Shown here: one piece after another, positions 45,761 through 64,000 of the stretch | How the letters are laid out: every line of letters begins with the position of its first letter | Position numbering within the stretch: the first letter of the stretch is position 1 | From: Roseobacter cerasinus | GTDB lineage: Bacteria; Pseudomonadota; Alphaproteobacteria; Rhodobacterales; Rhodobacteraceae | DNA length: 64,000 nucleotides | Assembly: GCF_009811755.1 (NCBI RefSeq) | Contig: NZ_BLIV01000007.1 | Span: 186,001 to 250,000 of the forward strand | Direction: 5' to 3' | Position numbers and translations under genes: made by a program | The notes under the pieces: generated by a model | The model's input: the letters and a program-made list of their open reading frames with translations, nothing else | The model's database searches: none | What the model was told of the DNA's origin: nothing

Positions 45761-47347
45761 ATGTTTGGATGGATGACGCGGCGCAGTCTGCTGGCGACTT
45801 TGCTGGCCGGGCCACTGGCGCTGGGGGCGTTGCCGGGTGTGGCGCAGGCCGAGACGACGCTGCGGGTGATTCCACATGCGGATCTGAAAAATCTCGATCC
45901 GATCTGGACCACCGCTTATATCACCCGCAACCACGGCTACATGATCTACGACACGCTGTTTGCGATGAACGAAAACTTCGAGCCGCAGCCGCAGATGGTC
46001 GATACCTGGGAAACCTCCGAGGATGGTCTGACCTGGACATTTGTGCTGCGTGACGGGCTGACGTTCCACGATGGTGCGCCGGTCACGGCGACGGATGTGG
46101 TGGCCTCGCTGGAGCGCTGGGGTAAACGCGATGGTATGGGCCAACAGCTCTTTGCCAACACCGCGAGCCTTGAGGCGCAGGACGACAAGACAGTGGTGCT
46201 GACGCTGGCCAATGACTATGGGCTGGTGCTGGAGAGCATCGGCAAGATCTCTTCCAACGTGCCCTTCATCATGCCCGCCCGCGTTGCGGCGACCGACCCT
46301 TTTGAGCAAATCACAGACTTCACCGGTTCAGGGCCGTTTGTGTTCCAGGCGGATGAATGGGTGCCGGGCAGCACGGTGGTTTACACCAAGTTTGACGACT
46401 ACGTGCCGCGTGAAGAGCCCGTTTCTGCCGCATCGGGTGGCAAGGTGGCCAAGGTCGACAAGGTTGTCTGGACCTACTTCCCCGATCAGACCACAGCGAT
46501 GAACGCGCTGATGGCAGGCGAAGTGGATTTCTTTGAGCAGCCCGCCAATGATCTTGCACCGCTCTTGGAGGCGAACCCGGATATCACCGTCGAGGTGAAC
46601 GACCCGCTGGGCAACATCGGCTTTGCCCGTTTCAACCACCTGTTGCCGCCCTTCGACAATGCGGATGTGCGCCGTGCGGCGATCATGGCGATGAAGCAGG
46701 AAGACTACATGGCTGCGGCTGTGGGGGATCCGAAGTTCTGGAAAACCTGCTATTCGGTCTTCCCTTGTGGCACCCCGCTCGACAATGATGTGGGTTCCGA
46801 AGTGATCGCCAAGGGGGACATCGATGCGGCCAAGGCGGCCCTGGCCGAGACCGGCTATGATGGCACGCCCGTTGTGATCATGCAGCCGACCGACATCCCG
46901 ATCCTCTCCGCTTTCTCGCTGGTCACAGCGGAAAAGTTGCGCAACGTGGGCTTTGAGGTCGACGTGCAGGCGATGGACTGGTCGACGCTGACGTCACGCC
47001 GCGCCTCGCGTGATCCGGTGGCCGATGGCGGCTGGAACATGTTCCACACCTGGTGGATTGGTGCGGATGTGATTGACCCGATGGCCATCGCCTTCTCCGG
47101 TAACCCGGATGCGGGATGGTTCGGCTGGGCCGAGGATGCCGCCCTCGAAGAGGCGCGCGCCGCCTTCGCGGTTGCGGGCAGCGAAGACGAGAAAAAGCAG
47201 GTCGCCCAGACAGTGCAGGACCGCCTGTGGTCCATTGGTGCGTCCGGCCAGTTGGGGCAGTTCTTCAACCCCGTGGCCTATCGCAGCAACGTAAAAGGTC
47301 TGATCAAATCCCCGGTACAGTTCTTCTGGAACATCTCGATCGAGTGA
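45761..47347 (+). CDS. ABC transporter substrate-binding protein, family 5 (DppA/OppA-like)
   Basis: The 528-aa periplasmic binding protein has a twin-arginine-like signal ('MTRRSLLATLLAG', cleavage after 'AQA' near residue 30). The SBP_bac_5 fold shows 'LDPIWTTAYITRNHGYMIYD', 'WTFVLRDGLTFHDGAPVTA' and 'SGPFVFQADEWVPGS'. The family binds di- and oligopeptides but also other solutes. AGGGAG precedes the ATG. It is the first gene of a four-gene ABC operon divergent from the amidohydrolase-M81 pair. Confidence 0.93.
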   Translation: MFGWMTRRSLLATLLAGPLALGALPGVAQAETTLRVIPHADLKNLDPIWTTAYITRNHGYMIYDTLFAMNENFEPQPQMVDTWETSEDGLTWTFVLRDGLTFHDGAPVTATDVVASLERWGKRDGMGQQLFANTASLEAQDDKTVVLTLANDYGLVLESIGKISSNVPFIMPARVAATDPFEQITDFTGSGPFVFQADEWVPGSTVVYTKFDDYVPREEPVSAASGGKVAKVDKVVWTYFPDQTTAMNALMAGEVDFFEQPANDLAPLLEANPDITVEVNDPLGNIGFARFNHLLPPFDNADVRRAAIMAMKQEDYMAAAVGDPKFWKTCYSVFPCGTPLDNDVGSEVIAKGDIDAAKAALAETGYDGTPVVIMQPTDIPILSAFSLVTAEKLRNVGFEVDVQAMDWSTLTSRRASRDPVADGGWNMFHTWWIGADVIDPMAIAFSGNPDAGWFGWAEDAALEEARAAFAVAGSEDEKKQVAQTVQDRLWSIGASGQLGQFFNPVAYRSNVKGLIKSPVQFFWNISIE

Positions 47348-47420
47348 TCTGACATGTTTTGCCCGGCGCGGTTTTGGGCTGCGCCGGATGTGAAAGTTTT
47401 CCGACAATCGCGGAGGCGCC

Positions 47421-48365
47421 ATGACGCGCTACATCACCATGCGTGTGCTCTCGACCATTCCGGTCATGGTGCTCGTGGCTTTGTTTGTGTTCCTGATGCT
47501 GCGGCTGGCGCCGGGTGACCCAGCCTCCGTGATCGCGGGCGACTATGCCACTGCGGAAGACGTGGCGCGCATTCGCGAACAGTTGGGCTTGTCGGACCCT
47601 ATCGTCGTGCAGTTCCTGCGCTGGGTCGGCGCGCTGATCCAAGGGGATCTGGGCACCTCTATCTTCTCCGGCAAGCCCGTGACCGAACTGATTGGTCAGC
47701 GTATTGAACCCACCATCCTGTTGGCGCTCACGACCATCATCTTCGCCGTTGTCGTGGCCGTGCCTCTGGGCACCATCGCCGCCTTTCGCGCGGGCTCACT
47801 GCTCGACCGAGTGGTGATGCTGTTTTCGGTCAGCGGGTTTTCCGTGCCCGTCTTCGTGCTGGGCTATATCCTCATTTACACATTCTCCATGTCGCTGAAG
47901 ATCCTACCGGTGCAGGGGTACAAATCGCCCCTTGTGGAAGGGTTTGGCCCGTTTCTTTACCACATCACGCTGCCGACAGTGACGCTGTCGGTGATCTTCA
48001 TCGCTCTGATTGCGCGGATGACCCGCGCGTCCGTCATCGAAGTGTTGGAGGAAGACTACATCCGCACCGCCCGCGCCAAGGGGCAGTCGGAGCTAACCAT
48101 CCTGATGCGCCACGCGCTGCGCAACGCCGCCGTACCGGTGGTGACCGTGATCGGCATCGGGATTGCGCTGCTGATCGGCGGGGTGGTGGTGACCGAAAGC
48201 GTGTTCAACATCCCCGGCCTGGGGCGACTGGTGCTCGATGCGGTGCTGGCGCGCGACTACCCGATCATCCAGGGTCTGATCCTGTTCTTCAGTTTCATCT
48301 ATATCTTCATCAACCTGATGATCGACCTCAGCTATACGCTGCTTGACCCGAGGATCCGCTACTGA
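47421..48365 (+). CDS. ABC transporter permease (DppB-like)
   Basis: The 314-aa inner-membrane permease has six helices. It starts with the DppB-type 'ITMRVLSTIPVMVLVALFVF' and 'RLAPGDPA', and has 'ARMTRASVIEVLEEDYIRTA' leading into the EAA-like loop 'RAKGQSELTILMRHALRNA'. CGGAGG lies upstream of the ATG. It overlaps the next permease by one base (TGATG). Confidence 0.94.
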   Translation: MTRYITMRVLSTIPVMVLVALFVFLMLRLAPGDPASVIAGDYATAEDVARIREQLGLSDPIVVQFLRWVGALIQGDLGTSIFSGKPVTELIGQRIEPTILLALTTIIFAVVVAVPLGTIAAFRAGSLLDRVVMLFSVSGFSVPVFVLGYILIYTFSMSLKILPVQGYKSPLVEGFGPFLYHITLPTVTLSVIFIALIARMTRASVIEVLEEDYIRTARAKGQSELTILMRHALRNAAVPVVTVIGIGIALLIGGVVVTESVFNIPGLGRLVLDAVLARDYPIIQGLILFFSFIYIFINLMIDLSYTLLDPRIRY

Positions 48366-49243
48366 TGACTGACGCAACCCTTCCGGCAGCACCCGCCGAG
48401 ACATCGAAGGACATCAGCCTCATCCGCCACGCGCTGCGCAATCGCGGGGTGTTCTGGGGCGGCGTGGTCCTGTTGCTGATCGCGGCCTTCGCCATTGTCG
48501 GCCCGTTCTTTGTGGCAGACCCCACGGCACTGAACCCGATCAACCGTCTGAAACCGCCCGGAAGCGCGGGGCTCTTTGGCACCGACATGCTGGGGCGTGA
48601 CGTCTATTCCCGCGTCGTGAACGGCGCGCAGATCTCGCTGGTGGTGGGGCTGTCGGTCGCGGTGATTGCCGTGGCGCTGGGGCTCTTCCTGGGGTTGATC
48701 GCGGGCTACATCCGGTTGATGGACGCGCTGATCATGCGGCTGATGGATGGTCTGATGTCGATCCCCGCGATCCTGCTGGCGATTGCGCTCATCTCGCTCT
48801 CTGGTGCCACGCTCGCCACGGTGGTTGTGGCCATCGTCATCCCTGAAATCCCGCGCGTGGTGCGGCTGGTGCGCTCTGTCGTGCTGACTGTCCGCGAGGA
48901 GCCTTATGTGGAAGCGGCGATTTCGGCCGGCACCAAGGTGCCCACGATCCTCATGCGCCACGTGCTGCCCAACACCATCGCGCCGCTAATCGTGCAGGCG
49001 ACATATATTTGCGGCTCGGCCATGTTGACGGAGTCCATCCTCGGCTTTCTGGGCGCGGGCATCCCGCCGGAAATCCCGTCCTGGGGCAACATCATGTCCG
49101 AAGGGCGCACCTTCTTCCAACTGACCCCGTGGATCATCTTCTTCCCCGGCGTCTGCCTCGCGCTGACGGTGCTGGCAGTGAACGTGGTGGGCGACGGGCT
49201 GCGCGACACGCTCGATCCGCGCATTGCCAAGGCGATGCGGTAA
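48365..49243 (+). CDS. ABC transporter permease (DppC-like)
   Basis: The 292-aa permease is the DppC-type partner: 'GTDMLGRDVYSRVVNGAQIS', 'MRLMDGLMSIPAILLAIAL', the EAA loop 'YVEAAISAGTKVPTILMRH', and 'TESILGFLGAGIPPEIPSWG'. About six membrane helices follow an N-terminal cytoplasmic tail. The stop overlaps the ATPase ATG by one base (TAATG). Confidence 0.94.
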   Translation: MTDATLPAAPAETSKDISLIRHALRNRGVFWGGVVLLLIAAFAIVGPFFVADPTALNPINRLKPPGSAGLFGTDMLGRDVYSRVVNGAQISLVVGLSVAVIAVALGLFLGLIAGYIRLMDALIMRLMDGLMSIPAILLAIALISLSGATLATVVVAIVIPEIPRVVRLVRSVVLTVREEPYVEAAISAGTKVPTILMRHVLPNTIAPLIVQATYICGSAMLTESILGFLGAGIPPEIPSWGNIMSEGRTFFQLTPWIIFFPGVCLALTVLAVNVVGDGLRDTLDPRIAKAMR

Positions 49244-50841
49244 TGGCGGTTCTGGAGGTCACAGGGCTGACCGTAGAGCTGCCCCCAAGCGCTGACCGTC
49301 CCTATGCGGTCGAAGACATCACCCTGCATGTGAATGCAGGCGAGATCCTCTGCATCGTCGGCGAAAGCGGGTCAGGCAAATCTGTCACAGCCTTCTCGGT
49401 CATGGGGTTGGCGGACAAGCGCGCGCTGACGCCTGTGGCGGGCACCATCACGCTGGAAGGCGAGGATTTGCTGACCGCCAGCGACCAACGCCTGCGCAAA
49501 CTGCGCGGCGAGAAGATGGCGATGATTTTTCAGGAGCCGATGACCGCGCTGAACCCGGTGCTGAGGGTGGGCGATCAGATCGGCGAGATGCTGGAGATCC
49601 ACACCGACCTCTCCGCATCGGCGCGTAAGGCCAAGGTCATCGAGGCCATGCGGGACGTCAGCCTGCCGGACCCGGAGAAGATGTACCGCTCCTATCCGCA
49701 CCAGCTTTCGGGCGGGCAGCGGCAGCGGATCATGATCGCCATGGCGCTGACGCTGGAGCCCCAGCTGCTAATTGCAGACGAGCCGACAACTGCGCTCGAT
49801 GTGACCACGCAGGCGCAGATCCTCAAGCTGATCAAGGATATCCAGCGGCGCAAGGGAATGGGCGTGATGTTCATCACCCATGACTTTGGTGTGGTGGCCG
49901 AGATTGCCGACCGCGTGGCGGTGATGAAGCATGGCCGTATCGTGGAGCAGGGCACCGTGGCCGAGGTGCTGGGCGCGCCGAAGGATCCCTATACCCAGAA
50001 ATTGATTGCGGCAGTGCCGTCGATGACGCCGCCTGAACGCCCCGAGGCCCAAGGTTCTGTGGCGTTGCAGACGCAGGCCCTCGTGAAGACATATGGGCAG
50101 CAGGGCCTCTTTGGCTCGGGCCGCGTTGTCAGGGCGGCGCAAGAGGTGGACCTGACTGTGCGGCGGGGCGAAACGCTGGGGATCGTGGGCGAAAGCGGCT
50201 CCGGCAAATCCACCGTTGCGCGTTGCGTCATGCGATTGATCGATCCGACCTCGGGTGCGATCCTGATCGACGGCGAGAACATCGCGTCCTTGCGCGAAGG
50301 CCAATTGCGTCCGCACCGCCGCGATATCCAGATCGTGTTCCAGGATCCCTATCGCTCGCTCAACCCGCGCCGGACCGTGGGGCAGAGCATCATCGAAGGG
50401 CCCGTGAATTTCGGGCTGGCCGTTCCCGAGGCGAAGGCTCGCGCTGCGGAGCTGATGAAGGTCGTCGGGCTCTCTTCAGATGCGCTGGAACGCTTCCCGC
50501 ATCAATTCTCCGGCGGGCAACGCCAGCGCATCTGCATCGCGCGCGCGCTGGCGATGGAGCCTGCTATCCTGATTGCGGATGAGGCGGTCTCGGCGCTTGA
50601 TGTCTCGGTGCAGGCTCAGGTGCTGGACCTTTTGGACGATGTGCGCGAGCGGTTCGACCTGGCCATGCTGTTCATCACCCATGATCTGCGGGTTGCAGCC
50701 CAGATATGTGACCGGATCATGGTGATGAACAAGGGAGAGGTCGTCGAAACGGGCCACACCGCACAGGTCTACGCCGACCCGCAGCACGCCTACACCCGCG
50801 CATTGCTTGCCGCGGCGCCGGGAACAGGGCCGGGGACCTGA
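49243..50841 (+). CDS. dipeptide-type ABC transporter double ATPase
   Basis: The 532-aa protein fuses two ATPase domains equivalent to DppD and DppF. Domain 1 has Walker A 'GESGSGKS', '[15 protein letters not shown]' and '[11 protein letters not shown]'. Domain 2 has 'GESGSGKST', '[20 protein letters not shown]', '[15 protein letters not shown]' and '[11 protein letters not shown]'. Domain 2 therefore has Ala-Val in place of the usual Pro-Thr after the catalytic Glu. The oligopeptide C-terminal region follows each domain. The ATG at 49243 overlaps the permease stop. Confidence 0.94.
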
Positions 50842-52743: not shown

Positions 52744-53079
52744 TTAGTCTAAGAACGCCACGGTTTTGCTCCAGTGGAGAAGCACAACGCAACCATCGTT
52801 GCTCCAAACCCGGTGGCTGCTGTTCTTAGGGTTAATCACGATATCACCAGCGCTGTAGGTCCCATGTTCGTCAGATTGGGAACCGTCGAGCACGAGGATC
52901 AATTCAGCGTCGACGTGACAATGGCGCGGCACCGCAGCGCCAGGGCTATAGCGCAATACGGCGATGCCGGGTTCACCTTCCAACAGCCAAGAGATTTCGA
53001 TGCCTTCGCGAAAAGGCGTGAAGGTCAGGTCGCGCCACCCGCCCGTCAGCAAGTCAGAGATATGGACAGGCTCATCCAT
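52744..53079 (-). CDS. small cupin-domain protein
   Basis: The 111-aa protein is a single cupin barrel of the ChrR-like/anti-sigma cupin style: '[20 protein letters not shown]' carries the His-x-His metal ligands with a downstream Glu, and '[20 protein letters not shown]' gives the second motif. The ATG at 53079 overlaps the upstream hydrolase stop by 8 bp. It is the last gene of the ureide operon. It could be an enzyme (ureidoglycolate-type cupin) or a small-molecule sensor; the metal site is intact but the reaction is unknown. Confidence 0.75.
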
Positions 53080-53740
53080 TGAGCGCACCGGTGATCTCTG
53101 CGGTTGGGGTCGCCCACCCGACGATCCCCCCTTGGGCAACAATCATCTCAATTGCAGCAGTTTTGAAGTCTGGAAAATAGCTCGCCGTCGCGTCTGTCGC
53201 GATCAGGCAGTCAAACCCGCGATCGTTGGCCTCGCGCATTGAGGTTTGCACGCACACCTCTGTCGTGACACCTGCGAAGATCAACTGTTTGATCCCATTG
53301 CCCTGCAAATGGCTCATCAAATCTGTGGCGTAGAACGCGCCTTTGCCAGGTTTGTCGACGACTTTCTCACCGGGATATGGCGCGAGCGCGGGCACAATCT
53401 CGGCACCGGGCTCTCCGGCGACAAGGACCCGGCCCATTGGGCCTTCGTCGCCGATCCGCAGTGTGGGTGCGCCGCGATCACGCTTGGCATCAGGCAGATC
53501 CGACAGGTCGGGTTTGTGGCATTCACGCGTGTGAATGACGGGCAATCCCGCTGCGCGAAACGCGCTTAAGAGCGTGGCGACAGTGGGCACGATTGACCCT
53601 AATTGCGACACGTCATTGCCCAAGCTTTCGCCAAAGCCGCCCGGTTCGATAAAGTCCCGCTGCATGTCGATGACGATCAATGCCAGCATTTCGCGTTGAA
53701 AGGGAAAATCGAAGGGATCGGCCTGGATCACTGGCATCAT
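53072..53740 (-). CDS. isochorismatase-like cysteine hydrolase, BiuH paralogue (possible triuret hydrolase)
   Basis: The 222-aa hydrolase of the isochorismatase-like family has the catalytic triad Asp25 ('[10 protein letters not shown]'), Lys130 ('[15 protein letters not shown]') and Cys163 ('[11 protein letters not shown]'). It is clearly related to the biuret hydrolase encoded in the same operon but differs in the substrate region. In Herbaspirillum a triuret hydrolase (TrtA) and BiuH are homologous neighbours, so this is a candidate TrtA. An N-carbamoyl-amide or ureidoacrylate hydrolase is the alternative. The ATG overlaps the ATPase stop as ATGA. Confidence 0.8.
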
Positions 53741-55242
53741 GCGTGCCCGGCCATGTAGACGCCGATTTCCGAGCGCGTGATGCTGCTCGTCGCCCCTTGA
53801 AAGGTGATTTGCCCGTCCCGGATTGTTGCCAGACGGTCCGAAAGCTCCATGATCTCGTCCAAATCTTCACTGATCAACAGAATCGCAACGCCGCGATTGC
53901 GGGCCGCGATCAATCGTTCACGGATGGCCGCGACCGCGTTGAAATCCAGCCCAAAGCATGGGTTTGCAACAATCAACAGGTCCACATCGCCGCTCAGTTC
54001 GCGGGCCAGCACAGTGCGCTGCACATTGCCGCCCGACAGCGCTGAAATCGGACTATGCGCGGAGGTGGTTTTGATGTTGTAGCCGATGATTTGCGCCTCG
54101 GCGGCGCGTTCCATTGCGCGACGGTCCTGCCAAAGCCTTGGACCGGATGTTCCCATGTCAAAGTCACGAAAGGCAAGGTTTTCAGCGACGCTCATGCTCG
54201 GGGCTGCCGCGTTTTTCAGAGGTTCTTCGGGCAGGTAGCGCACTTTGTGGTCGCGCGCTTCTTGGCGCGTGGCCGAGTAGGCGGCACCTTTGACGTTGAT
54301 GTTCCCGGCGGTCAGCGGGCGTTGGCCGGTCAGCATTTCCATCAACTCGGTCTGTCCGTTGCCCGATATCCCGGCAAGGCCCACAATCTCGCCCGAGTGA
54401 ACGGTGAGATCGTCAATCCGAATATGGGACGTACCGGAGCGAGAGCGCGCCTGGACGCCCCGCACCACCAGAACGGGGCGTTTTTCCGTCTCCTGACGGT
54501 GGGGCGCGCGTGGTGTCGCAGCGTCGCCCATCATCATATGCGCCAGTGCATCGTTGGACAGCCTGGACACCGCCCCACCCCCGACCATACGGCCGCGTCT
54601 CAAAATGGTGACATCGTCGGCATAGGCGCGGACTTCGCGGAACTTGTGGGTGATCAGCAGCACCGAAATCTCGCCCGACATGCAAAGCGCGCGGATGTGG
54701 CTCAGCATCTCATCCGCCTCATCCGGGGTCAGCACTGAGGTCGGCTCGTCCAGGATCAAGAAACGGTTGCCGAGGTAAAGCTGTTTCACGATCTCCAGCT
54801 TTTGCTTTTCGCCCGCCGACAGGCGGCTGACCGGTTGGTCCAGTTCCGGCTGAAAGGGCAGCCTGGTCAGAAACTCCGCGATTTGCGCGCGCTCAGCAGA
54901 CCAATTGATGACGCGTGGCGCATCTGCACGGCTGATCACCAGGTTCTCGGCCCCTGTCAGCGATGGCACAAGCGTGAAATGCTGGTAGACCATCCCAAGG
55001 CCGAGCCGTTGCGCGTCAATCGGGTCGGCGATCCGCGCCTCTCGCCCGTTGACCAAAAGCCCGCCTTCGGTCGCGTGGTAAAAGCCCATGATGCACTTGA
55101 CCAAGGTCGATTTGCCCGCACCGTTTTCACCCAAAAGCGCATGCACAGTCCCGGGCCGCACGGTCATCGACACAGCGTCCAACGCGGTGAATGCGCCAAA
55201 GCGCATTGTCATGCCGACGGTTTCGACCTGCAGCGCCTCCAT
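53737..55242 (-). CDS. BMP-type ABC transporter double ATPase
   Basis: The 501-aa protein has two ATPase domains of the sugar/nucleoside class (RbsA/YufO-like). Domain 1 has Walker A 'GENGAGKST', '[15 protein letters not shown]' and '[16 protein letters not shown]'. Domain 2 is degenerate at the P-loop position ('[14 protein letters not shown]'), as usual for this class, with '[15 protein letters not shown]' and '[12 protein letters not shown]'. It energises the two permeases of the operon. The ATG overlaps the biuH stop by one base. A BMP-type importer with a hydrolase set suggests uptake of ureides rather than nucleosides. Confidence 0.92.
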
Positions 55243-55919
55243 CAGGCCAGCCCGGTGATCAGGCTTTGACTGTCAGAGACCGCGCCAAAGACGCCGCCCT
55301 GCATCGTTACCATCTTTATGGCGGCATCATGGTTGCCCTTGTCGGTGGCACCGCAGCAATCTTCTAGCACGACGCACTCAAAGCCACGATCATTGGCTTC
55401 GCGCATGGTGGTTGAGACACAGACATCCGTGGTGATCCCGCAGATGGCAAGGTTCTCGATCCCGCGTGTGCGCAGGATCATCTCAAGGTCAGTGGCGCAA
55501 AAGCTGCCTTTGCCCGGTTTGTCGATGATCACCTCGCCCGGTTCGGGATAAAGTTCTGGTATGATGTCCCAGCCCTGCTCGCCCCGCACCAAGATCTTGC
55601 CACAGGGACCCGGATCGCCAATGCCTGCGCCAATCTGTTGGCTGCGCCAGCGCTTGTTTGCGGGCAAGTCTGACAGGTCGGGCCGGTGGCCTTCGCGGGT
55701 GTGGATGATGTGATAGCCCTTGGCGCGCATGGTCTTGAGCACCGCTTTGATGGGTTCAATCGGCGCTTGCGTCATCGACAGGTCATAACCCATCGCATCC
55801 ACATACCCACCCTTGCCGCAGAAATCCGTCTGCATGTCGATGATCACAAGGGCGGTGTTTTCCGGCCTGAGATCACCGTTATAGGGCCAGGCGTAGGGAC
55901 GGCTTTGGATGGTGGTCAT
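55242..55919 (-). CDS. biuH: biuret hydrolase (biuret amidohydrolase)
   Basis: The 225-aa isochorismatase-like hydrolase converts biuret to allophanate and ammonia. The triad is Asp28 ('[18 protein letters not shown]'), Lys134 ('[16 protein letters not shown]') and Cys167 ('[17 protein letters not shown]'). Positions are offset by exactly eight from the residues known for the Rhizobium enzyme (D36/K142/C175). The N-terminal '[20 protein letters not shown]' and '[20 protein letters not shown]'-like segment (residues 73-91) also agree. It is coupled to the formamidase by ATGA and to the ATPase by TGATG. Allophanate would then be handled by AtzF encoded nearby. Confidence 0.88.
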
Positions 55920-56932
55920 TCAGCAGCCTCTTTGCTGGGCTGACCAAAGAGGCGTGTGGGCGCGGGAAAGCCGAAGCCGGTGCCGTCGGTCACCTTGACC
56001 TCATCCTCCCACGGCAGGCGGTACTGACCTGCTGCGAGGTCGGTCATGTAGGTGTAGGGACAATCCTGCGCGCCGCCTTTGACGGCAACATAGCCGCGAT
56101 GCCCGAACTGGTAGATGTTGTTCTCGACCCCCCAGCCAGCGCGCGCCTCTCGGATCAGGTCGGGGCGCAGTTCGGCCGTGATGATCTCATCGGCCCGACC
56201 AGAGGTGCCATGGGCGATGATCGACCCGTCGAAGTCGACGATCATGCCTTCGCCCATGCTGTCAAACGTCCCGTCAGAGCCGCACATGCAAACATTTGCC
56301 GTGGCCATCAGATTGCAGAACGCATTGGACTGATTGGTGAACTTCCAACTGTCGCGGATGGGGGCAGTGTAGCCTGCAGTACGGATCATGATCTCCGCCC
56401 CCTTATAGGCGCATTCGCGCGCCATCTCGGGGAACATGCCGTCATGGCAGATGATGAGCGCGATCTTGGACCCGTTTGGTCCGTCACAGACCGGGATGCC
56501 CTGATCTCCTGGCTCCCACGGCTCCACCGGCACCCAGGGGTGCATTTTGCGGTAGTAGAGTTGGATCTCACCTTCATCATCGATGATGAGCCCGGAATTG
56601 TAGGGCATGCCGCCGGGGTTCAATTCCATAATGGAAAAGCAGCCCCAGATTTTGTGTTCCACGCACGCGGCCTTGAACGCGGCAACCTCGGGGCCATCAA
56701 GGCTGCACATGATCTTGGGGTTGATGTCCATCGACAGGCCGTGCAGCGCGTATTCCGGGAAGACGACCAGATCCATCGTGCCCATATTGCGCCGGGCCTT
56801 GCCCACCATATCCACGATCTTTTGCGTCTGCGCGGCGAGGTCGTCTGAGGTTACGATCGTTGGCAATTGCAGCTGCACCATCCCGATGACGACGCCGTTT
56901 TCCGATTTGTTCAAACCACCCAAGCCGTTCAT
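55916..56932 (-). CDS. amiF: formamidase (nitrilase superfamily)
   Basis: The 338-aa cytosolic enzyme hydrolyses formamide to formate and ammonia. The nitrilase triad is Glu60 ('[11 protein letters not shown]'), Lys129 ('LYYRKMHPW') and Cys162 ('[17 protein letters not shown]'). The opening '[20 protein letters not shown]', '[19 protein letters not shown]' and '[17 protein letters not shown]' are formamidase-specific in character and separate it from other aliphatic amidases. It lies between the second permease and biuH. Why formamide hydrolysis belongs in a biuret operon is not obvious; it may act on a related short amide. Confidence 0.9.
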
Positions 56933-56942
56933 GGTGTGCCTC

Positions 56943-57866
56943 CTATTTTGTGATGGACAATTCCCCCGGCGCGCCCTCTTGCGCTTTTCCGGGGGTCGAG
57001 GTGAGGATCAGCAGCGCCAGCGTCAAAACATAAGGTGCCGCAAAAAAGAGGTAGTAGCCCGAGGTCACGCCCACGGTTTGCAGCGCCGGCCCAATCGCGC
57101 CTGCAGCGCCGAAAAGAAGGGCTGCCGCGAGGCACATCACCGGGTTCCAGCGGGCAAAGATCACCAGCGCTACGGCCATCAGTCCTTGGCCGGATGAGAT
57201 GCCTTCGTTCCAACTGCCGGGATAATAGAGCGACAGATACGCCCCGCCGATCCCGGCCAAGGCACCGCCCGCTGCGGTAGACCACAGGCGGATGCCATCG
57301 GGATTCACGCCAATGGCACGGGCGGCTTCGGTGCTGTCACCCACGACGCGGATGCGCAGGCCAAGGGCTGCGTTTTTGAAAAACCATGCCATGGCAAAGG
57401 CCAGCACCACGCCCACAACAAACAGCGCGTTGATCTGCAGGGCCGCCTGAACCTGCGGGATGTCTGACCACCACCCAAAGGGAATAGCCGGCAGGTCCGG
57501 TGCAATGGGCTGGACATAGGATTTGCCGAAAAAGAAGGCGAGGCCAATTCCAAGCAGCATCAGCGCGATGCCCATGGCGATGTCATTGACCCCCCTGAAC
57601 CGGCAGATCCAGCCGTGAAACAGGCCGAAGACCGCACCTGCGATGGCGGCCGCCAGCACACCGACCCAGGGCGAGCCCGTCTCGAAGGCGATGGCATAGC
57701 CTGCCATTGCGCCAAAGACCAACGTACCTTCGAGCCCGAGGTTGATGCGCCCCGAACGCTCCGTCAGGCATTCGCCGAGCGACACAAAAAGGAACGGGGT
57801 CGAAACGCGGATCGCGCCGCCCAGCATTGCGATGGGTACGGCCCAAAGGCCCAGATCTTCGCTCAT
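56943..57866 (-). CDS. BMP-type ABC transporter permease (YufQ-like)
   Basis: The 307-aa inner-membrane permease of the BPD_transp_2 family has eight or more hydrophobic segments. It carries 'ERSGRINLGLEGTLVFGAMA' and 'GLRIRVVGDSTEAARAIGVN' (cytoplasmic coupling loop). ATG 57866 overlaps the preceding permease stop as ATGA; an ATG five codons upstream is possible. It ends 10 bp before amiF, confirming one transcript. Confidence 0.92.
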   Translation of the reverse strand: MSEDLGLWAVPIAMLGGAIRVSTPFLFVSLGECLTERSGRINLGLEGTLVFGAMAGYAIAFETGSPWVGVLAAAIAGAVFGLFHGWICRFRGVNDIAMGIALMLLGIGLAFFFGKSYVQPIAPDLPAIPFGWWSDIPQVQAALQINALFVVGVVLAFAMAWFFKNAALGLRIRVVGDSTEAARAIGVNPDGIRLWSTAAGGALAGIGGAYLSLYYPGSWNEGISSGQGLMAVALVIFARWNPVMCLAAALLFGAAGAIGPALQTVGVTSGYYLFFAAPYVLTLALLILTSTPGKAQEGAPGELSITK

Positions 57867-58963
57867 CTCGGGTCCTCCCACAGCTCGGGCCGGAAGAATT
57901 TGATCCGCCCGTAAAGGGTCTCGGACAAAAGAAGCATCACGAAAACGATGCCCTGCATCACGAGGATTGTGGCGTCGGGCAAGTCCATCCGCCTTTGGAT
58001 CAGGCCAGACGATGCCTCAAACCCGGCAAGCAGGATTGCGACCGGGATGATAGCCAACGGGTTGTGACGGGCGAGAAAGGCCACCAGGATGCCCGTATAG
58101 CCATAGCCCACCACCAGAGACGCGTTGGCTGATCCGTGGATCGCAGCGACCTCAAAAAAACCGGCCAGACCGGCCATCGCACCGCCAAGTGTGGTGAATC
58201 CAACGATCAGCTTCGCCACCGGCAGGCCCTGGACTTGAGCGGCGCGCACATTGTCACCCGCGATCCGAGCGGCGAAACCGATGGTCGTCCGGTCGGTCAA
58301 TACCCAGCAGAGCACGCAAGCAATGGTCCCCACGCCAAAGCCCCAATGCACTTCGATCCCGATGGGCATGTTGCCGACGCGCAGCGCATCAGCGAGAGGG
58401 GCTGTCGATGGCTTGTTCAAACTGGCCGGGTCGCGAAACATGCCTTCGACCAGGTGGTTCATCAGCGCAATCGCGATATAGGCCATCAACAGCGACGCGA
58501 TGGTTTCATTCACACCGCGTTTGATCCGTAACAGCCCGACCAAGCCGATCCAAAGACCACCCACGGCCATCGCCGCAAAGGCCATGGCAGGCAGTCCCAC
58601 AACGCCCGGCAGGCTGGCAAGCCATACGCCCGTGACGGCGGCCGCCAAACCGCCCAGAGCGATGGCCCCTTCGCCCCCAATCACCACGAGGCCGAGGCGT
58701 GCGGGCAGCGCGACGCAGAGCCCGGCAAAAAGCAGCGGGGCCACCCGTGACAATGTGTTCTTCCAGGAAAACGCCGTGCCAAAGGCGGCCTTGAACACCA
58801 AGGAAAAGAACTCGATCGGTGAATTCCCGAGCGCCAGCAAGAACAGCGAAAATACCGCGAGCCCCGCAATGAGAGCTGCCACCGGGATTGCCACCGCCTC
58901 AAGCCGGGGCAGCCAAATGGCCAGCCCCGGTAATGTCGGTACCCGTGTCGCGGTACTGTCCAT
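57863..58963 (-). CDS. BMP-type ABC transporter permease (YufP-like)
   Basis: The 366-aa BPD_transp_2 family permease has an N-terminal extension before the first helix and about nine hydrophobic segments. 'LVVIGGEGAIALGGLAAAVT' is the family glycine-rich motif and 'GFAARIAGDNVRAAQVQGLP' the coupling loop. It is the second gene of the operon, 4 bp after the binding-protein stop. Confidence 0.92.
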   Translation of the reverse strand: MDSTATRVPTLPGLAIWLPRLEAVAIPVAALIAGLAVFSLFLLALGNSPIEFFSLVFKAAFGTAFSWKNTLSRVAPLLFAGLCVALPARLGLVVIGGEGAIALGGLAAAVTGVWLASLPGVVGLPAMAFAAMAVGGLWIGLVGLLRIKRGVNETIASLLMAYIAIALMNHLVEGMFRDPASLNKPSTAPLADALRVGNMPIGIEVHWGFGVGTIACVLCWVLTDRTTIGFAARIAGDNVRAAQVQGLPVAKLIVGFTTLGGAMAGLAGFFEVAAIHGSANASLVVGYGYTGILVAFLARHNPLAIIPVAILLAGFEASSGLIQRRMDLPDATILVMQGIVFVMLLLSETLYGRIKFFRPELWEDPR

Positions 58964-58967
58964 GGCG

Positions 58968-60074
58968 TTAGCTGGTCGAGCCGATCACGCCCTCGACGAG
59001 GTAGTCCATGCTTTCCAGGGCGATGTCGTCCTCAACAAAGCTCTGTCCCGCAGCCGCGATCACGTTGCCCGCGTTGTCCTTCAGCGGGCCTTTGATGGCA
59101 GCAAATCCACCTGCCATGATCTTGGCCTTGGTGGCGTCGTATTGCTTGCGGGCCGCGTCTGAGACCGCAGGGCCAAGCGGGCTCATCTTGATGAAGCCAT
59201 CTGCCAGTCCACCACGCACAAAGTTGTCGATTGTGCCGCCTTCCATCGCGGTTTTGACCATCCCGGTATAGACCCCGGCCCAGTTCCACTCGGCCCCGGT
59301 CAGGTATTTTTCGGGCGCGAGCGGCGATTGGTTGGCGTGGTAGCCACAGATGAGCGCGTCCCGTGCCGCAGCGGTTTCCATCACGACCTTGGGCCCATCC
59401 ACATGGCAGGTGATGACGTCGCAGCCCTGGTCTGCCAAGGCGTTCGTGGCCTCCGCCTCTTTGACGGCGAGCGACCATTCGCCAGTGAAAATGACCTGAC
59501 AGGTGATCTCAGGATCGACCTGACGCGCGCCCAACAGGAACGAATTGATGTTTAGCAGTACCTGCGGGATGGGCTTGGCCGCGACAAAGCCGATCTTTTT
59601 CGTCTTGGTTGCGTGACCTGCGGTGATGCCGTTGAGGTACTGGCCCATGCCGATATAGCCAAAGTAGCTTCCGACATTGGTCGGGTGTTTGTCGGCGGAC
59701 CACAGACCCGCGGCGTGCTGGAACCGCACACCTTCGTGCTTGGGCGCGATATCGAGGATATGCGGGTCGAAATAGCCAAATGAGGTAGGAAACAGCAGCT
59801 TCACCCCATCAAAATTGATCATGGATTCCATTGAGCTTTGGACATCGACAGTTTCAGGCACGTTTTCCTCTTCGACCACTTTAACGCCGTCCATCGCTTT
59901 GACAGCCGCCGCACCCTCTGCGTGGGCCTGGTTGTAGCCAAAGTCATCTTTGGGCCCGACATAGATAAAGCCCACAGTCAGCTCGTCCGCCGCCAGTGCG
60001 GTTTGCGGCAAAAGAGAGGTGGCAGCCACAGCGCCTGTTGAGGCCAGGAGCGTACGGCGTGAAATACGTGTCAT
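58968..60074 (-). CDS. BMP family substrate-binding lipoprotein-like protein
   Basis: The 368-aa periplasmic binding protein is of the BMP/PnrA/Med family. It has a twin-arginine-type signal 'RISRRTLLASTGAVAATSLL' ending 'ALAA', with no lipobox cysteine, so it is probably soluble. The mature start 'ELTVGFIYVGPKDDFGYNQA' is the family hallmark (normally G-x-x-DxSFN), and 'IGFVAAKPIPQVLLNINSFL' and 'ITCHVDGPKVVMETAA' follow. In this operon the ligand is more likely a ureide or amide than a nucleoside. A T-N11-A motif lies about 105 bp upstream of the start. Confidence 0.88.
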   Translation of the reverse strand: MTRISRRTLLASTGAVAATSLLPQTALAADELTVGFIYVGPKDDFGYNQAHAEGAAAVKAMDGVKVVEEENVPETVDVQSSMESMINFDGVKLLFPTSFGYFDPHILDIAPKHEGVRFQHAAGLWSADKHPTNVGSYFGYIGMGQYLNGITAGHATKTKKIGFVAAKPIPQVLLNINSFLLGARQVDPEITCQVIFTGEWSLAVKEAEATNALADQGCDVITCHVDGPKVVMETAAARDALICGYHANQSPLAPEKYLTGAEWNWAGVYTGMVKTAMEGGTIDNFVRGGLADGFIKMSPLGPAVSDAARKQYDATKAKIMAGGFAAIKGPLKDNAGNVIAAAGQSFVEDDIALESMDYLVEGVIGSTS

Positions 60075-60178
60075 GTTTTGAAACCCCCATATTGAGCGCC
60101 GGACATGGGCGCGGCATTGTGCACAAAGTCTAGGACGGGGGTGCGGTGCTGACTTCTGCTCAAATTTCCCCGGATCGA

Positions 60179-60193
60179 TGCATTTTTTGCACC
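60179..60193 (-). promoter_or_regulatory. putative LysR operator upstream of the BMP transporter operon
   Basis: On the minus strand it reads GGTGCAAAAAATGCA, matching 14 of 15 bases of the site at 61111-61125. TGCA-N5-TGCA gives the T-N11-A pattern of LysR-type regulators. It lies just after the lysR stop codon and about 105 bp before the binding-protein start. Confidence 0.6.
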
Positions 60194-60194
60194 A

Positions 60195-61094
60195 CTACTC
60201 CAGGCGCTGCAGCGACTGGACCAGTTGCTGGGCAAAGCGCGCAGATGCGACGGGTAACACGCGCCCGCGCAATTGCCCCAAGAGCAGGTTGCCATGCGGC
60301 ACCTCGGGAGCGGCCAGTGGGCGCGAGACGAGGTTGGTTGCGCCCGACAGATCAAGGCCAATCGGGAATTGGAAACTGATCATATCCTCCCATTGTCCGT
60401 AGTGGCGCATGAAGTCGAAACTTTCGGATTCGATCATCGGGTTAAGCGAAATGGAGGACAGCCGCCGCGACGCGGTCTCAAGGATGTTGCGCACGGCGAA
60501 TTTGCTCGATGGTGCTGTGTGTGGGTGGCGCAGGCAATCACGCAGCCGCACCTCGGGTTGCTCAGCCAATGGGTGATCCGCGCGCATGACCGCATGAATG
60601 GGTTGCGCGATGGCAAAGACCACTTCGAAATCCACCATGGTTTGCGGCTCAAAGACCAGGGCCAGATCACTGGAAAATTCGGCCAATTCACGCTCGGCCT
60701 CGACCCTGTCACGGGCATTGACCGAGAAGGTCACACCTGGATGGTCTTCGCGGTATTGAGCGATTTGATGCGGCAGGAAATAGGGCAAGAGCGCCTGAGA
60801 ACAGGCGACCGAAACGTGGCCGCGTCGCACCCCCGACAGGTCTGCAACCTGCGAGCGCAGGCGCGCAAACTCGGACCCTTGGCTGCGGATGAACTGCAAC
60901 AGCATCTCACCTGCCGGGTTCAGACGGACACCGCGCGGCAGGCGTTCGAATATCTCATAGCCGAACTCATCCTCAAACCGGTTGATCCGCCGGTTGAGCG
61001 CTGAGGCGGTGATGTGCATGTCTTCGGCGGCCTTGCGGATGGACCCTGCGCGGATCACCCCTTCGATGAATTCGTAGTCTTTGAGGTGTCGCAT
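60195..61094 (-). CDS. LysR-family transcriptional regulator
   Basis: The 299-aa regulator has an N-terminal winged helix-turn-helix: 'RHLKDYEFIEGVIRAGSIRK', 'AAEDMHITASALNRRINRFE' and 'LFERLPRGVRLNPAGE'-like text. The periplasmic-binding-protein-like sensor domain spans about residues 90-290. The ATG at 61094 is the normal LysR start; 54 further upstream residues are not family-like. It lies between the BMP operon (same strand) and atzF (divergent), the classical position for a local LysR activator. Two copies of a shared T-N11-A motif flank it. Confidence 0.9.
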   Translation of the reverse strand: MRHLKDYEFIEGVIRAGSIRKAAEDMHITASALNRRINRFEDEFGYEIFERLPRGVRLNPAGEMLLQFIRSQGSEFARLRSQVADLSGVRRGHVSVACSQALLPYFLPHQIAQYREDHPGVTFSVNARDRVEAERELAEFSSDLALVFEPQTMVDFEVVFAIAQPIHAVMRADHPLAEQPEVRLRDCLRHPHTAPSSKFAVRNILETASRRLSSISLNPMIESESFDFMRHYGQWEDMISFQFPIGLDLSGATNLVSRPLAAPEVPHGNLLLGQLRGRVLPVASARFAQQLVQSLQRLE

Positions 61095-61110
61095 CTGCGC
61101 CTTTCCGAGC

Positions 61111-61127
61111 GGTGCAAAAAACGCACC
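61111..61127 (+). promoter_or_regulatory. putative LysR operator in the lysR-atzF intergenic region
   Basis: GGTGCAAAAAACGCACC is itself an inverted repeat (GGTGC/GCACC) and contains T-N11-A. It lies 17 bp upstream of the lysR start and about 107 bp upstream of the atzF start, so it could serve both autoregulation and atzF activation. It nearly matches the site at 60179-60193. Confidence 0.65.
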
Positions 61128-61233
61128 GGTTTTGTGAAAACATAGCATTTGTGTAATCGGCCCCGTCACCCGACCGTTGAAAGAACCAACAACTGGGGGT
61201 CTGAACGATGCCGCGATTGACGCGATCTTTGGC

Positions 61234-63033
61234 ATGAGTGCTGCAATTCCACTCACTTTGGACGCGCTGCGGTCTGCCTATGCCCAAGGGACATCTCCCG
61301 TCGAGGTGGTGGCCCAGGTCTATGACCGAATCGACGCGGTAGCCGATCCCGGCATTTTCATCACTCTGTTTGACCGCGCACAGGTCGAAGCGGCTGCCCA
61401 TGCGTTGGGAGCATACGACCCGAACCTGCCGCTTTGGGGTGTGCCCTTTGCGATCAAGGACAACATGGATGTCGCAGGCGAAGTCACAACGGCGGGGTGC
61501 CCGGACTTTGCCTATACCGCTGAGGCCACATCCACCGTGGTGCAAAACCTCTTGGATGCGGGCGCGCTTCTGATCGGTAAGACCAACCTCGATCAATTCG
61601 CAACCGGTCTTGTTGGGGTACGTACACCCTATGGCGCGCCGTTGAATTCGATTGATCCCGACATTGTACCGGGCGGCTCGTCCGGTGGATCCGGTGTTGC
61701 TGTCGGCCATGGCATCGTCACCTTCGCTTTGGGCACCGATACGGCAGGGTCGGGCCGGGTGCCGGCCGCCTTGAACAACATTGTCGGGCTGAAGCCAACA
61801 CTTGGGTCGCTGTCTGCCACTGGGCTGGTGCCAGCTTGCCGAACCCTCGACACGATCTCGGTTTTTGCGCTCACGGTCGCGGATGCCTACGCGGCCTTTG
61901 GCGTTGCGGCCTCATATGATGCCGCCGACAGCTATTCGCGCGCCATTGGCATTGCCCCCCTTGCGCAACCAGCCCCGTACCCGGTGATCGCGATCCCGTC
62001 CCCGGACAGTATCCGCTTCGAAGGGGACACAGCGCAGGCTGCATCCTTTGCGTCCGTCATCGAAGCGCTGCAGGAACAAGGCGCTGTGATCCGTGAGATC
62101 GACTTTTCAGCCCTCTATGACGTGGCCGAAATGCTCTATTACGGCCCGTGGGTGGCCGAACGCTATGCCGCCACCGAAGCGTTGATGACCACAAACCCGG
62201 ATGCGCTATTCCCGGTGACACGCAAGATCATCAGCGGGGCAGAGGCGCTGACGGCCGTTGATGCGTTCAAGGGGCTCTACCGTCTCAAAGATCTGATCCG
62301 CAAAGCGGAACCGCTGATTGACGGCTGCGACGCGCTGTGTGTGCCGACGATCCCGACCTTTTTTACTGTCGCGGAGCTGGAGGCTGACCCAATTGGGCCG
62401 AACAACAAGCTGGGGACGTATACCAATTTCGTGAATTTGATGGATATGTGCGGCATCGCAGTTCCGGCACCGCCGCGCAGTGATGGCCGCCCTGGAAGTG
62501 TCACGTTTCTGGCAAGCGCGGGCGAAGACGCCAAGGTCGCGTCGCTGGCGACACGCGTGGAGGCCATGGGCACCAGAACCCTGGGCGCAACGGATTGGGC
62601 GAGACCTGCTGCCCCGGTCCTGGCCGCACCTTGTTCCAGCGCGATCCAGATTGCAGTGTGCGGCGCCCATATGGACGGTCTTCCGCTAAACGAACACCTG
62701 ACAAGTCGCGGAGCCATCAAGGTCAAAACGACCAGGACGGCTGCGGATTATGGCTTTTATGCGTTGCCCAGTGACGACGTGGCGCGCCCTGCATTGGTGC
62801 GCCACGCGACCGAGCAGGGCGCTGAGGTCAGCCTCGAGATCTGGGAAATGCCCGAGGCGCAATTCGGCAGTTTCATGAAAACCATCCCCGCGCCCTTGGG
62901 CATAGGCACCATCAAGCTGGTCGATGGGTCTACGGTTCAAGGGTTCCTCTGCGAAGCGGTCGCCATTGATGGCGCCACAGACATCACCGACCTCGCCGAT
63001 TGGCGAGCATATATTGCGCAATCGCGCACATAA
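61234..63033 (+). CDS. atzF: allophanate hydrolase
   Basis: The 599-aa amidase-signature enzyme hydrolyses allophanate to ammonia and CO2, the last step of biuret, cyanurate and urea-carboxylase pathways. The triad is Lys75 ('GVPFAIKDNMDVAG'), Ser149 ('IVPGGSSGGSGVAV') and Ser173 ('ALGTDTAGSGRVPAAL'), offset by 16 from the known AtzF residues K91/S165/S189. The C-terminal AtzF domain (about residues 475-599) is present. ATG 61234 was chosen because 'IPLTLDALRSAYAQG' is the usual beginning; a TTG at 61177 would add 19 residues. No urea carboxylase is nearby, which points to biuret as the source of allophanate. Confidence 0.93.
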   Translation: MSAAIPLTLDALRSAYAQGTSPVEVVAQVYDRIDAVADPGIFITLFDRAQVEAAAHALGAYDPNLPLWGVPFAIKDNMDVAGEVTTAGCPDFAYTAEATSTVVQNLLDAGALLIGKTNLDQFATGLVGVRTPYGAPLNSIDPDIVPGGSSGGSGVAVGHGIVTFALGTDTAGSGRVPAALNNIVGLKPTLGSLSATGLVPACRTLDTISVFALTVADAYAAFGVAASYDAADSYSRAIGIAPLAQPAPYPVIAIPSPDSIRFEGDTAQAASFASVIEALQEQGAVIREIDFSALYDVAEMLYYGPWVAERYAATEALMTTNPDALFPVTRKIISGAEALTAVDAFKGLYRLKDLIRKAEPLIDGCDALCVPTIPTFFTVAELEADPIGPNNKLGTYTNFVNLMDMCGIAVPAPPRSDGRPGSVTFLASAGEDAKVASLATRVEAMGTRTLGATDWARPAAPVLAAPCSSAIQIAVCGAHMDGLPLNEHLTSRGAIKVKTTRTAADYGFYALPSDDVARPALVRHATEQGAEVSLEIWEMPEAQFGSFMKTIPAPLGIGTIKLVDGSTVQGFLCEAVAIDGATDITDLADWRAYIAQSRT

Positions 63034-63078: not shown

Positions 63079-64000
63079 ATGACAAAGATAAACCGCCGAT
63101 CCCTACTGGCCGCCGGGGCCGCCAGCGCTTCGATGCTGCCGTTCCTGCGCGCCATGCCGGCCCATGCGGCTGGTGATGACGTGATGGTCGCGGTCAACGG
63201 TCAGACAATCAACAGCCTTGATCTGCACCGCACGGGCACCAACCGTCCCAGCTATCAGGTCGCGATCAACTGCTATGACCGGCTGGTATCATTCGGGACC
63301 AAACCTTCGTCTGGTGGTGGCTTGGAGTTTGATTATTCTAAGGTCGAACCGGAACTTGCCGAAAGCTGGACCGTTTCGGACGATGGGTTGATCCTGACAT
63401 TCACCTTGCGCGATGCCACGTTTCAGGATGGCAGCCCGGTGACGGCAGAGGACGTCAAATGGTCTTTTGATCGCGCGGTTTCTTTGGGCGGGTTCCCGGC
63501 AGTGCAGATGAAAGCGGGAGGGTTTACCCGGCCCGATCAATTTGTGGCCGTTGACGCCAAGACGTTCCAAATTACGCTGGATTTCGCCTCCAAACTGGCG
63601 ATCCCCGACCTTGCGGTGCCGATCCCCTTTGTCATCAACTCCAAGGTGGCCATCGCGAACGCCACCGAAGAGGACCCGTGGGCGACCGAGTATTTACACC
63701 AGAACACCATCGGTTCGGGCGCGTACAAGGCTGCGCGTTGGGTCCCTGGCGAGCAACTCGTCTATGAGCGCTACGATAACTGGGCCAGCGGTCCGCTGCC
63801 TGCCTACAAGCGCGTGGTCATCCGCGAAGTGCCATCGGCAGCCACACGGCGCGCTTTAATCGAAAAGGGTGATGTGCAGCTGTCCTTCAACATCCCCAGC
63901 AAGGACGCCGCTGAGTTGGCGGAGACCCTGACCGTGAACTCCACTCCGATTGCCAATGCGATCAATTGCATCGGGCTCAATACCAAATTTGAGCCGTTCC
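63079..64000 (+). CDS. ABC transporter substrate-binding protein, family 5 (partial, runs off window)
   Basis: The frame opens at an ATG with CAGGAGAAG upstream and stays open to the window end (about 307 residues). It has a twin-arginine-like signal ('KINRRSLLAAGAASASMLPF', ending 'AHA'), then SBP_bac_5 features: 'VEPELAESWTVSDDGLILTF', 'LRDATFQDGSPVTAEDVKWS' and 'TIGSGAYKAARWVPGEQLVY'. It starts 45 bp after atzF and is probably co-transcribed with it, implying a second importer encoded beyond the window. Confidence 0.9.
   Translation, partial: MTKINRRSLLAAGAASASMLPFLRAMPAHAAGDDVMVAVNGQTINSLDLHRTGTNRPSYQVAINCYDRLVSFGTKPSSGGGLEFDYSKVEPELAESWTVSDDGLILTFTLRDATFQDGSPVTAEDVKWSFDRAVSLGGFPAVQMKAGGFTRPDQFVAVDAKTFQITLDFASKLAIPDLAVPIPFVINSKVAIANATEEDPWATEYLHQNTIGSGAYKAARWVPGEQLVYERYDNWASGPLPAYKRVVIREVPSAATRRALIEKGDVQLSFNIPSKDAAELAETLTVNSTPIANAINCIGLNTKFEPF

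Follow-up and report, generated by a model that had tools for sequence, protein, structure and literature searches.

A probable triuret and biuret scavenging regulon in Roseobacter cerasinus, with a candidate BMP-type importer and a candidate cupin decarboxylase

We describe a gene cluster in a 64,000-nucleotide stretch of the Roseobacter cerasinus genome (contig NZ_BLIV01000007.1, positions 186,001 to 250,000; the whole stretch is termed the window) that probably constitutes a nitrogen-scavenging regulon for the linear polyureas triuret and biuret. The minus strand encodes, in order, a LysR-type regulator, a substrate-binding protein (SBP), two permeases, a formamidase (AmiF), the hydrolase BiuH, an ATPase, the hydrolase TrtA and a small cupin; atzF, encoding allophanate hydrolase, is transcribed divergently from lysR (Table 1). 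In the scheme proposed, a BMP-type ATP-binding cassette (ABC) importer with a modified purine pocket would take up triuret and biuret; TrtA, by homology, would convert triuret to carboxybiuret and NH3; the cupin may decarboxylate carboxybiuret to biuret; BiuH, by homology, would yield allophanate and NH3, from which AtzF, likewise by homology, would release NH3 and CO2; AmiF might clear formamide, perhaps derived from formylated ureides; and the LysR protein would control both transcription units through a paired operator. An earlier note on this DNA had proposed a complete biuret locus, possibly extending to triuret, with a BMP-type importer as a previously unassigned uptake system. Each gene it named was found as an open reading frame in the position given and matched the expected family, including an SBP of PF02608, two PF02653 permeases and an ATPase with two ABC domains. 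On the evidence below its biuret pathway is well supported, its triuret step is considerably strengthened, and its description of the importer as unassigned holds only in part; the cupin, the predicted operator and a matching operon in Rhizobium 3841 are additions to it. The marine setting and slow-release nitrogen role it suggested may be surmised.

The first of the two hydrolases is evidently the biuret hydrolase BiuH. It shares 80.1% identity over 221 residues with the Rhizobium johnstonii 3841 protein (locus L092) and retains 18 of 18 active-site residues checked (positions taken from PMC5806882 and PMC7948467), including the triad D28/K134/C167 and the biuret-binding residues Lys145, Gln215, Phe41 and Tyr47. 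The second is evidently the triuret hydrolase TrtA: it scores 252.2 bits on the BiuH model NF050097, under the cut-off of 370, shares 65.6% identity over 212 residues with TrtA (6XIX), and carries the triad D25/K130/C163. It has the TrtA letter at 15 of 15 positions overall, among them Q202 and F35, N41, A134, E160, Y187 and I205, the six residues described as setting TrtA apart from BiuH (Tassoulas et al., PMC7948467). Both triads had been read correctly in the earlier note. In a tree of 56 rows, the second hydrolase fell inside an 18-row clade with 6XIX (support 100/97) and the window BiuH grouped with its Rhizobium 3841 and Rhodococcus counterparts in a clade of 25 rows (support 97/86), while RutB lay outside both, on long branches flagged as unsure. 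Assignment of the hydrolases as ureidoacrylate (RutB) enzymes, one of the outcomes that the earlier note would have taken as refutation, was ruled out by this placement and by profile scores under the NCBIfam cut-off (94.6 bits for the second hydrolase, against 378); N-carbamoylsarcosine enzymes were ruled out by scores, the tree holding no such enzyme.

AtzF is the only protein in the genome to match TIGR02713 over its cut-off and, given a start at ATG 61234, has both the triad K75/S149/S173 previously noted and the C-terminal domain PF21986. AtzF enzymes are also used in urea degradation. They are further used in guanidine degradation (PMC12625717), and it might be argued that AtzF serves one of these routes here, with the cluster a coincidental neighbour. 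We consider this very improbable: a profile search of the whole genome for urea carboxylase gave 13 matches, all partial domains and none over cut-off, which extends to the genome what had been stated for the locus, and exact copies of the predicted operator flank only atzF and the importer operon. For urease, an alpha subunit scoring above its cut-off is present in the genome.

The closest parallel to the arrangement is the biuH operon on plasmid pRL10 of R. johnstonii (leguminosarum) 3841, which has the same order of SBP, two permeases, formamidase, BiuH, ATPase, TrtA-like protein and cupin, but differs in having atzD between biuH and the ATPase gene, a GntR regulator upstream, and no atzF annotated within the 21 kb examined. 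Linkage of this importer to biuH was surveyed in four samples. Among 398 genomes sampled across the phylum, 26 encoded BiuH over cut-off, and in 24 of these 26 loci (25 fetched, together with the window's own) the SBP, both permeases and the ATPase were all encoded on the same strand within 6.5 kb of biuH; the other two had none. Within the window's family (295 genomes, 29 with BiuH over cut-off) all four parts were present in 26 of 29 loci, and the remaining three were cut by contig ends. The best 80 named loci, a set biased because loci were picked by similarity, comprised 73 with all four parts, four with some and three with none. From a further family, 40 of 70 genomes with TrtA were fetched; 38 of these loci had BiuH, 33 with the complete importer and five with part of it, and the other two lack biuH but have trtA together with an AtzH-like gene. 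None of eight control loci, built around sub-cut-off relatives of the hydrolases (L165, L166, L194-L199), contained an SBP over 250 bits, although L166 lies beside a BMP set of the ordinary kind and two permease matches occur in L199; L165 and L166 hold no biuH over threshold. In the opposite direction, a search of 120 genomes with the SBP retrieved eight proteins over 460 bits, in eight genomes that all figure in the BiuH list, the next score being 363 bits. Five loci lacked BMP parts, and four of the five had some other transporter within a few kb (a raw count that includes any chance neighbours): in L160 and L164 biuH lies beside an NCS1 cytosine/allantoin-type permease that replaces the BMP set, in L042 and L046 PF00528 ABC permeases occur, with an NMT1-type binding protein also in L046, and in L083 no obvious transporter was seen. 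Locus L046, from a Geminicoccus metagenome-assembled genome, has atzF, lysR, biuH, trtA, cupin and operator without a BMP set, and the NMT1-type binding protein and atzD follow.

The amiF gene was encountered in 13 of 26 phylum-sample loci, 20 of 29 in the window's family, 47 of the best 80 named loci and 20 of 40 in the further family, mostly directly upstream of biuH. The window AmiF has E60, K129 and C162, which we take to be its catalytic residues, in the expected motifs. TrtA is weakly active on formylurea, at 0.3% of its activity on triuret (PMC7948467); one may speculate that the unstable acid produced by this cleavage would lose CO2 and become formamide, the AmiF substrate, and that AmiF removes formamide arising, perhaps, from formylated ureides.

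A ligand for the importer is suggested by its SBP, of which the nearest solved relatives are AtzT (6PI5; E 1.6e-59) and 3S99 (6e-53). The guanine site of AtzT is formed by Tyr45, Ser97, Phe98, Glu165, Trp194, Asn218 and Asn220, with Asn169 and Thr139 behind (PMC6834077). Alignment recovered each of these named residues, and the window SBP pocket reads Y47 S98 F99 Q145 Q171 N175 W200 H224 V225 D226. In AtzT numbering, used hereafter, Ser97, Phe98, Asn169 and the aromatic sandwich of Tyr45 and Trp194 (Y47 and W200 in the window SBP) are kept, whereas five positions differ. Gln replaces both Glu165, which hydrogen-bonds the purine (Gln171 in the window SBP), and Thr139; Val replaces Thr219, and His and Asp stand in place of Asn218 and Asn220. 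His218 and Asp220 are shared with 3S99 and hence not distinctive. To follow these positions we compared 194 distinct SBPs, leaving out identical copies and fragments of at most 250 residues, and divided them by distance from biuH and by score to the window SBP. The 152 encoded within 6.5 kb of biuH and scoring over 300 bits had Gln at position 165 in 147 cases (Thr in two, Ser in two, Ile in one, Glu in none), and Asn169, Trp194, His218, Val219 and Asp220 each in 152 of 152. A lower-scoring group of 38, not within 6.5 kb of biuH, had Glu165 and Thr219 without exception (38 of 38 for each); 17 of them belong to second BMP sets inside biuH loci. Four SBPs fit neither group: L089, discussed below; L279, low-scoring and near biuH, with Pro at position 165; and L068:109 and L228:1369. 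These last two, not within 6.5 kb of biuH and intermediate in score (over the 300-bit split), have Leu or Ile at 165 and perhaps represent another ligand class. The pattern suggests that the sandwich for a flat ligand has been kept while the carboxylate that accepts the guanine NH gave way to an amide that could face an NH beside a C=O, as found in triuret, biuret and cyanuric acid. By eye, the N-terminus of the window SBP also bears a Tat-like motif, SRRTLL.

Linkage and the changed pocket together point to the BMP importer as the probable uptake system for triuret and biuret. This part of the earlier note is supported; its "previously unassigned" is only partly so, co-location having been published for nitrifiers (PMC12625717) and AtzT having been described near a cyanuric-acid operon (PMC6834077). 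Two other cargoes merit consideration. An ordinary purine or nucleoside transporter could sit in the operon by chance, as its BMP family membership, the binding of guanine by AtzT (KD about 110 nM) and the adenine modelled in 3S99 (PMC6834077), together with a printed "nucleoside transporter" label (PMC12625717), would allow. This is unlikely, however, given that the linked SBPs stand apart as a high-scoring group that lacks Glu165 and has Val in place of Thr219 in 152 of 152, and that the window's genome already encodes another SBP with a purine-type pocket (L201). Alternatively, the operon might serve cyanuric acid, with the pocket reading a ring edge and biuret merely an intermediate; the R. 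johnstonii 3841 operon, like some others, contains atzD, and AtzT binds some s-triazines (PMC6834077). We judge this less probable still: no AtzD-family match was found in the window's genome (nor in any control genome, though the model gives the R. johnstonii protein 404 bits), no more than 3 of the 26 phylum-sample loci show atzD within the fetched stretch, and trtA would be left without a role.

The triuret pathway trtA-trtB-biuH-atzF is known from Herbaspirillum sp. BH-1 (PMC7948467), which has the same enzymes, its TrtA being 66% identical to that of the window with the same residues, but differs in having TrtB as a separate characterised decarboxylase. At the window locus the candidate carboxybiuret decarboxylase is the cupin, whose reading frame ends at 52744 and, at its start, shares 8 nt with the end of trtA. 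The HxHxxxE motif and the second-motif His are present in 79 of 79 aligned rows (78 distinct, the window copy occurring twice). We examined 184 loci, 147 with trtA, 32 with biuH but no trtA call and five with neither, AtzH-like proteins being those of the PF11533/HpxZ type. The 147 trtA loci contained a cupin gene in 83 cases, an AtzH-like gene in 51, neither in 13 and both in none, counting within the fetched stretch matches of whatever score with E under 1e-5; removal of identical trtA rows left 76, 50 and 13 of 139. Some of the loci with neither are short or cut by contig ends. By comparison, 28 of the 32 biuH loci without a trtA call had neither gene, three had an AtzH-like gene and one (L062) a cupin. 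Inspection showed that L062 does hold trtA (68% over 220 residues), in an open frame shared with the ATPase gene, and was first counted otherwise because the gene caller had assigned that frame to the ATPase. Eight rows form a divergent TrtA-like clade, possibly not TrtA, with neither gene in six and an AtzH-like gene in two. Median distance from the trtA frame was 67 nt for the cupin and 3,894 nt for AtzH-like genes. The window's genome gave no match to PF11533, in a search whose control was positive in one of 14 genomes.

This mutual exclusion follows lineage to a large degree. A quick TrtA tree requires a minimum of four changes between cupin and AtzH-like neighbours, and its well-supported branches force only two for the cupin label; in the further family, which presumably includes Herbaspirillum, an AtzH-like gene accompanies trtA at 35 of 40 loci and a cupin at none of the 40. 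A query of 250 genomes of one family with the Herbaspirillum TrtA found no near-identical copy, the best being 72%. In L058, L154 and L158 the AtzH-like gene lies beside a second amidase weakly like AtzF, and an AtzE-AtzH route has been described for Pseudomonas ADP (PMC6219798); such AtzH-like genes may therefore belong to that route. On our reading the cupin would fill the carboxybiuret-use slot whichever route the AtzH-like genes serve. That the cupin is instead a sensor or regulator, or catalyses some other reaction, is a serious possibility, if one we place somewhat below an even chance. Its best NCBIfam matches are ChrR anti-sigma models, albeit far under their cut-offs, and the amidase neighbours of some AtzH-like genes mean that the exclusivity may mark a different route. 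Set against this are its length of 111 residues with a cupin domain only, the overlap with trtA, the invariant metal ligands, and the repeated changes (at least four, with the reservation given above) required by the tree. Should TrtB belong to this cupin family, the decarboxylase assignment would already be known.

Regulation of the cluster appears to be shared. The pattern GGTGC-N7-GCAYC, written from the two sites themselves, occurs upstream of the SBP gene and between lysR and atzF; shuffling predicts 0.05 matches in the window. When a looser form of the pattern was applied to the 4.47 Mb genome, the only exact matches were these two, with five more at one mismatch and none for the reversed control. 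LysR sites follow a T-N11-A rule, which the predicted operator fits. Of 20 loci with the closest LysR (at least 380 bits, the window's included), 13 have at least one site by lysR (two in seven of them) and the other seven have none; at least one site was found in six of 35 loci with a weaker LysR, and 117 loci without that LysR yielded 19 sites in all. These observations suggest that a single palindromic operator, present in two copies, lets the LysR protein govern the two transcription units. We take AtzR of Pseudomonas sp. ADP to be a LysR-type regulator as well. A search for sigma-54 promoters gave no signal (88 matches in the window, 90.6 expected by chance).

Several points weigh against the proposed scheme. 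Guanine, adenine and 2-hydroxyatrazine are the ligands of the SBP's nearest characterised relatives (PMC6834077), and the corresponding BMP set is presented in print as a nucleoside transporter (PMC12625717). The SBP of L089 (192 bits), within 6.5 kb of biuH, carries Glu165. The presence of atzD in some loci (12 of the best 80 named, R. johnstonii among them) makes cyanuric acid a possible cargo, and amiF is found in only 13 of the 26 phylum-sample loci. Carboxybiuret decarboxylates spontaneously, with a half-life of about 20 min (PMC7948467), so that the step does not strictly require an enzyme, and neither the cupin nor an AtzH-like gene is present in 13 of 147 trtA loci. Finally, loci share species and lineages, and the counts are not independent.

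Elements of this system have been reported elsewhere. In nitrifiers, a transporter of the same type, bmpA-nupABC, is co-located with biuH, trtA and atzF. The 2025 paper concerned (PMC12625717) names it a nucleoside transporter and nowhere uses the word "cupin" in its main text; for comammox contigs, which lack trtB, it attributes the step to spontaneous decay or to an enzyme yet to be identified. AtzT, from the atzRSTUVW operon of Pseudomonas sp. ADP, is likewise a BMP-type SBP beside an allophanate-forming pathway (PMC6834077). Literature searches, with subscription papers mostly outside their reach, revealed no cupin tied to triuret or carboxybiuret and no named bacterial biuret transporter gene. 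Thus, while the pathway and transporter co-location are known, the pocket signature, the cupin assignment and the regulon look new. Entry of triuret and biuret into cells is not settled in the literature searched, and trtB is absent from some triuret loci (comammox; PMC12625717); for each gap, importer and decarboxylase, one named protein with residues to mutate can now be offered, and R. johnstonii 3841 provides a reference strain with the SBP and cupin genes beside a characterised BiuH. We advance tentatively, at somewhat less than even odds, that the trtA-linked cupin is a second, metal-dependent family of carboxybiuret decarboxylases replacing AtzH-like proteins in Alphaproteobacteria, and that the Gln165 branch of BMP proteins is the first dedicated family of linear-polyurea importers, derived from a purine importer by exchange of the guanine-reading Glu. 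If the importer assignment is right, a single pocket position could serve to rename transporters that at present carry a nucleoside or purine label.

Table 1. Genes and predicted operators of the locus, in window positions
Feature	Position	Strand	Support
LysR-type regulator, heads operon	60195..61094	-	PF00126 and PF03466
BMP/PnrA-type SBP, proposed ureide binder	58968..60074	-	PF02608, 119.5 bits; nearest solved AtzT 6PI5
ABC permease A	57863..58963	-	PF02653
ABC permease B	56943..57881	-	PF02653
AmiF-type formamidase	55916..56932	-	NF009803, 576.7 bits, cut-off 406
BiuH, biuret amidohydrolase	55242..55919	-	NF050097, 414.1 bits, cut-off 370
ABC ATPase, two ATP-binding domains	53737..55242	-	PF00005, two stretches
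TrtA, triuret hydrolase	53072..53740	-	best PDB match 6XIX, E 2.7e-90
Single-domain cupin, candidate carboxybiuret decarboxylase, 111 aa	52744..53079	-	PF12973
AtzF, allophanate hydrolase, 599 aa	61234..63033	+	TIGR02713, 736.6 bits, cut-off 511
Predicted LysR operator GGTGCAAAAAATGCATC, upstream of importer operon	60177..60193	-	pattern match
Predicted LysR operator GGTGCAAAAAACGCACC, between lysR and atzF	61111..61127	+	pattern match

A third isochorismatase-family hydrolase (L014:12719-13336; G000:C7) lies about 10.7 kb past the window end, behind what by eye seems to be a spermidine/putrescine-type ABC set; at 50.5 bits on the BiuH and 56.7 bits on the RutB model, far under both cut-offs, it was rejected as a pathway member. 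Also by eye, a dipeptide-type ABC transporter begins directly after atzF (63079-64000 and beyond the window), and a similar binding protein and permease occur in the neighbourhood in some relatives, for example at locus L192. Another peptide-type ABC transporter cassette was seen by eye on the plus strand at 45761-50841.

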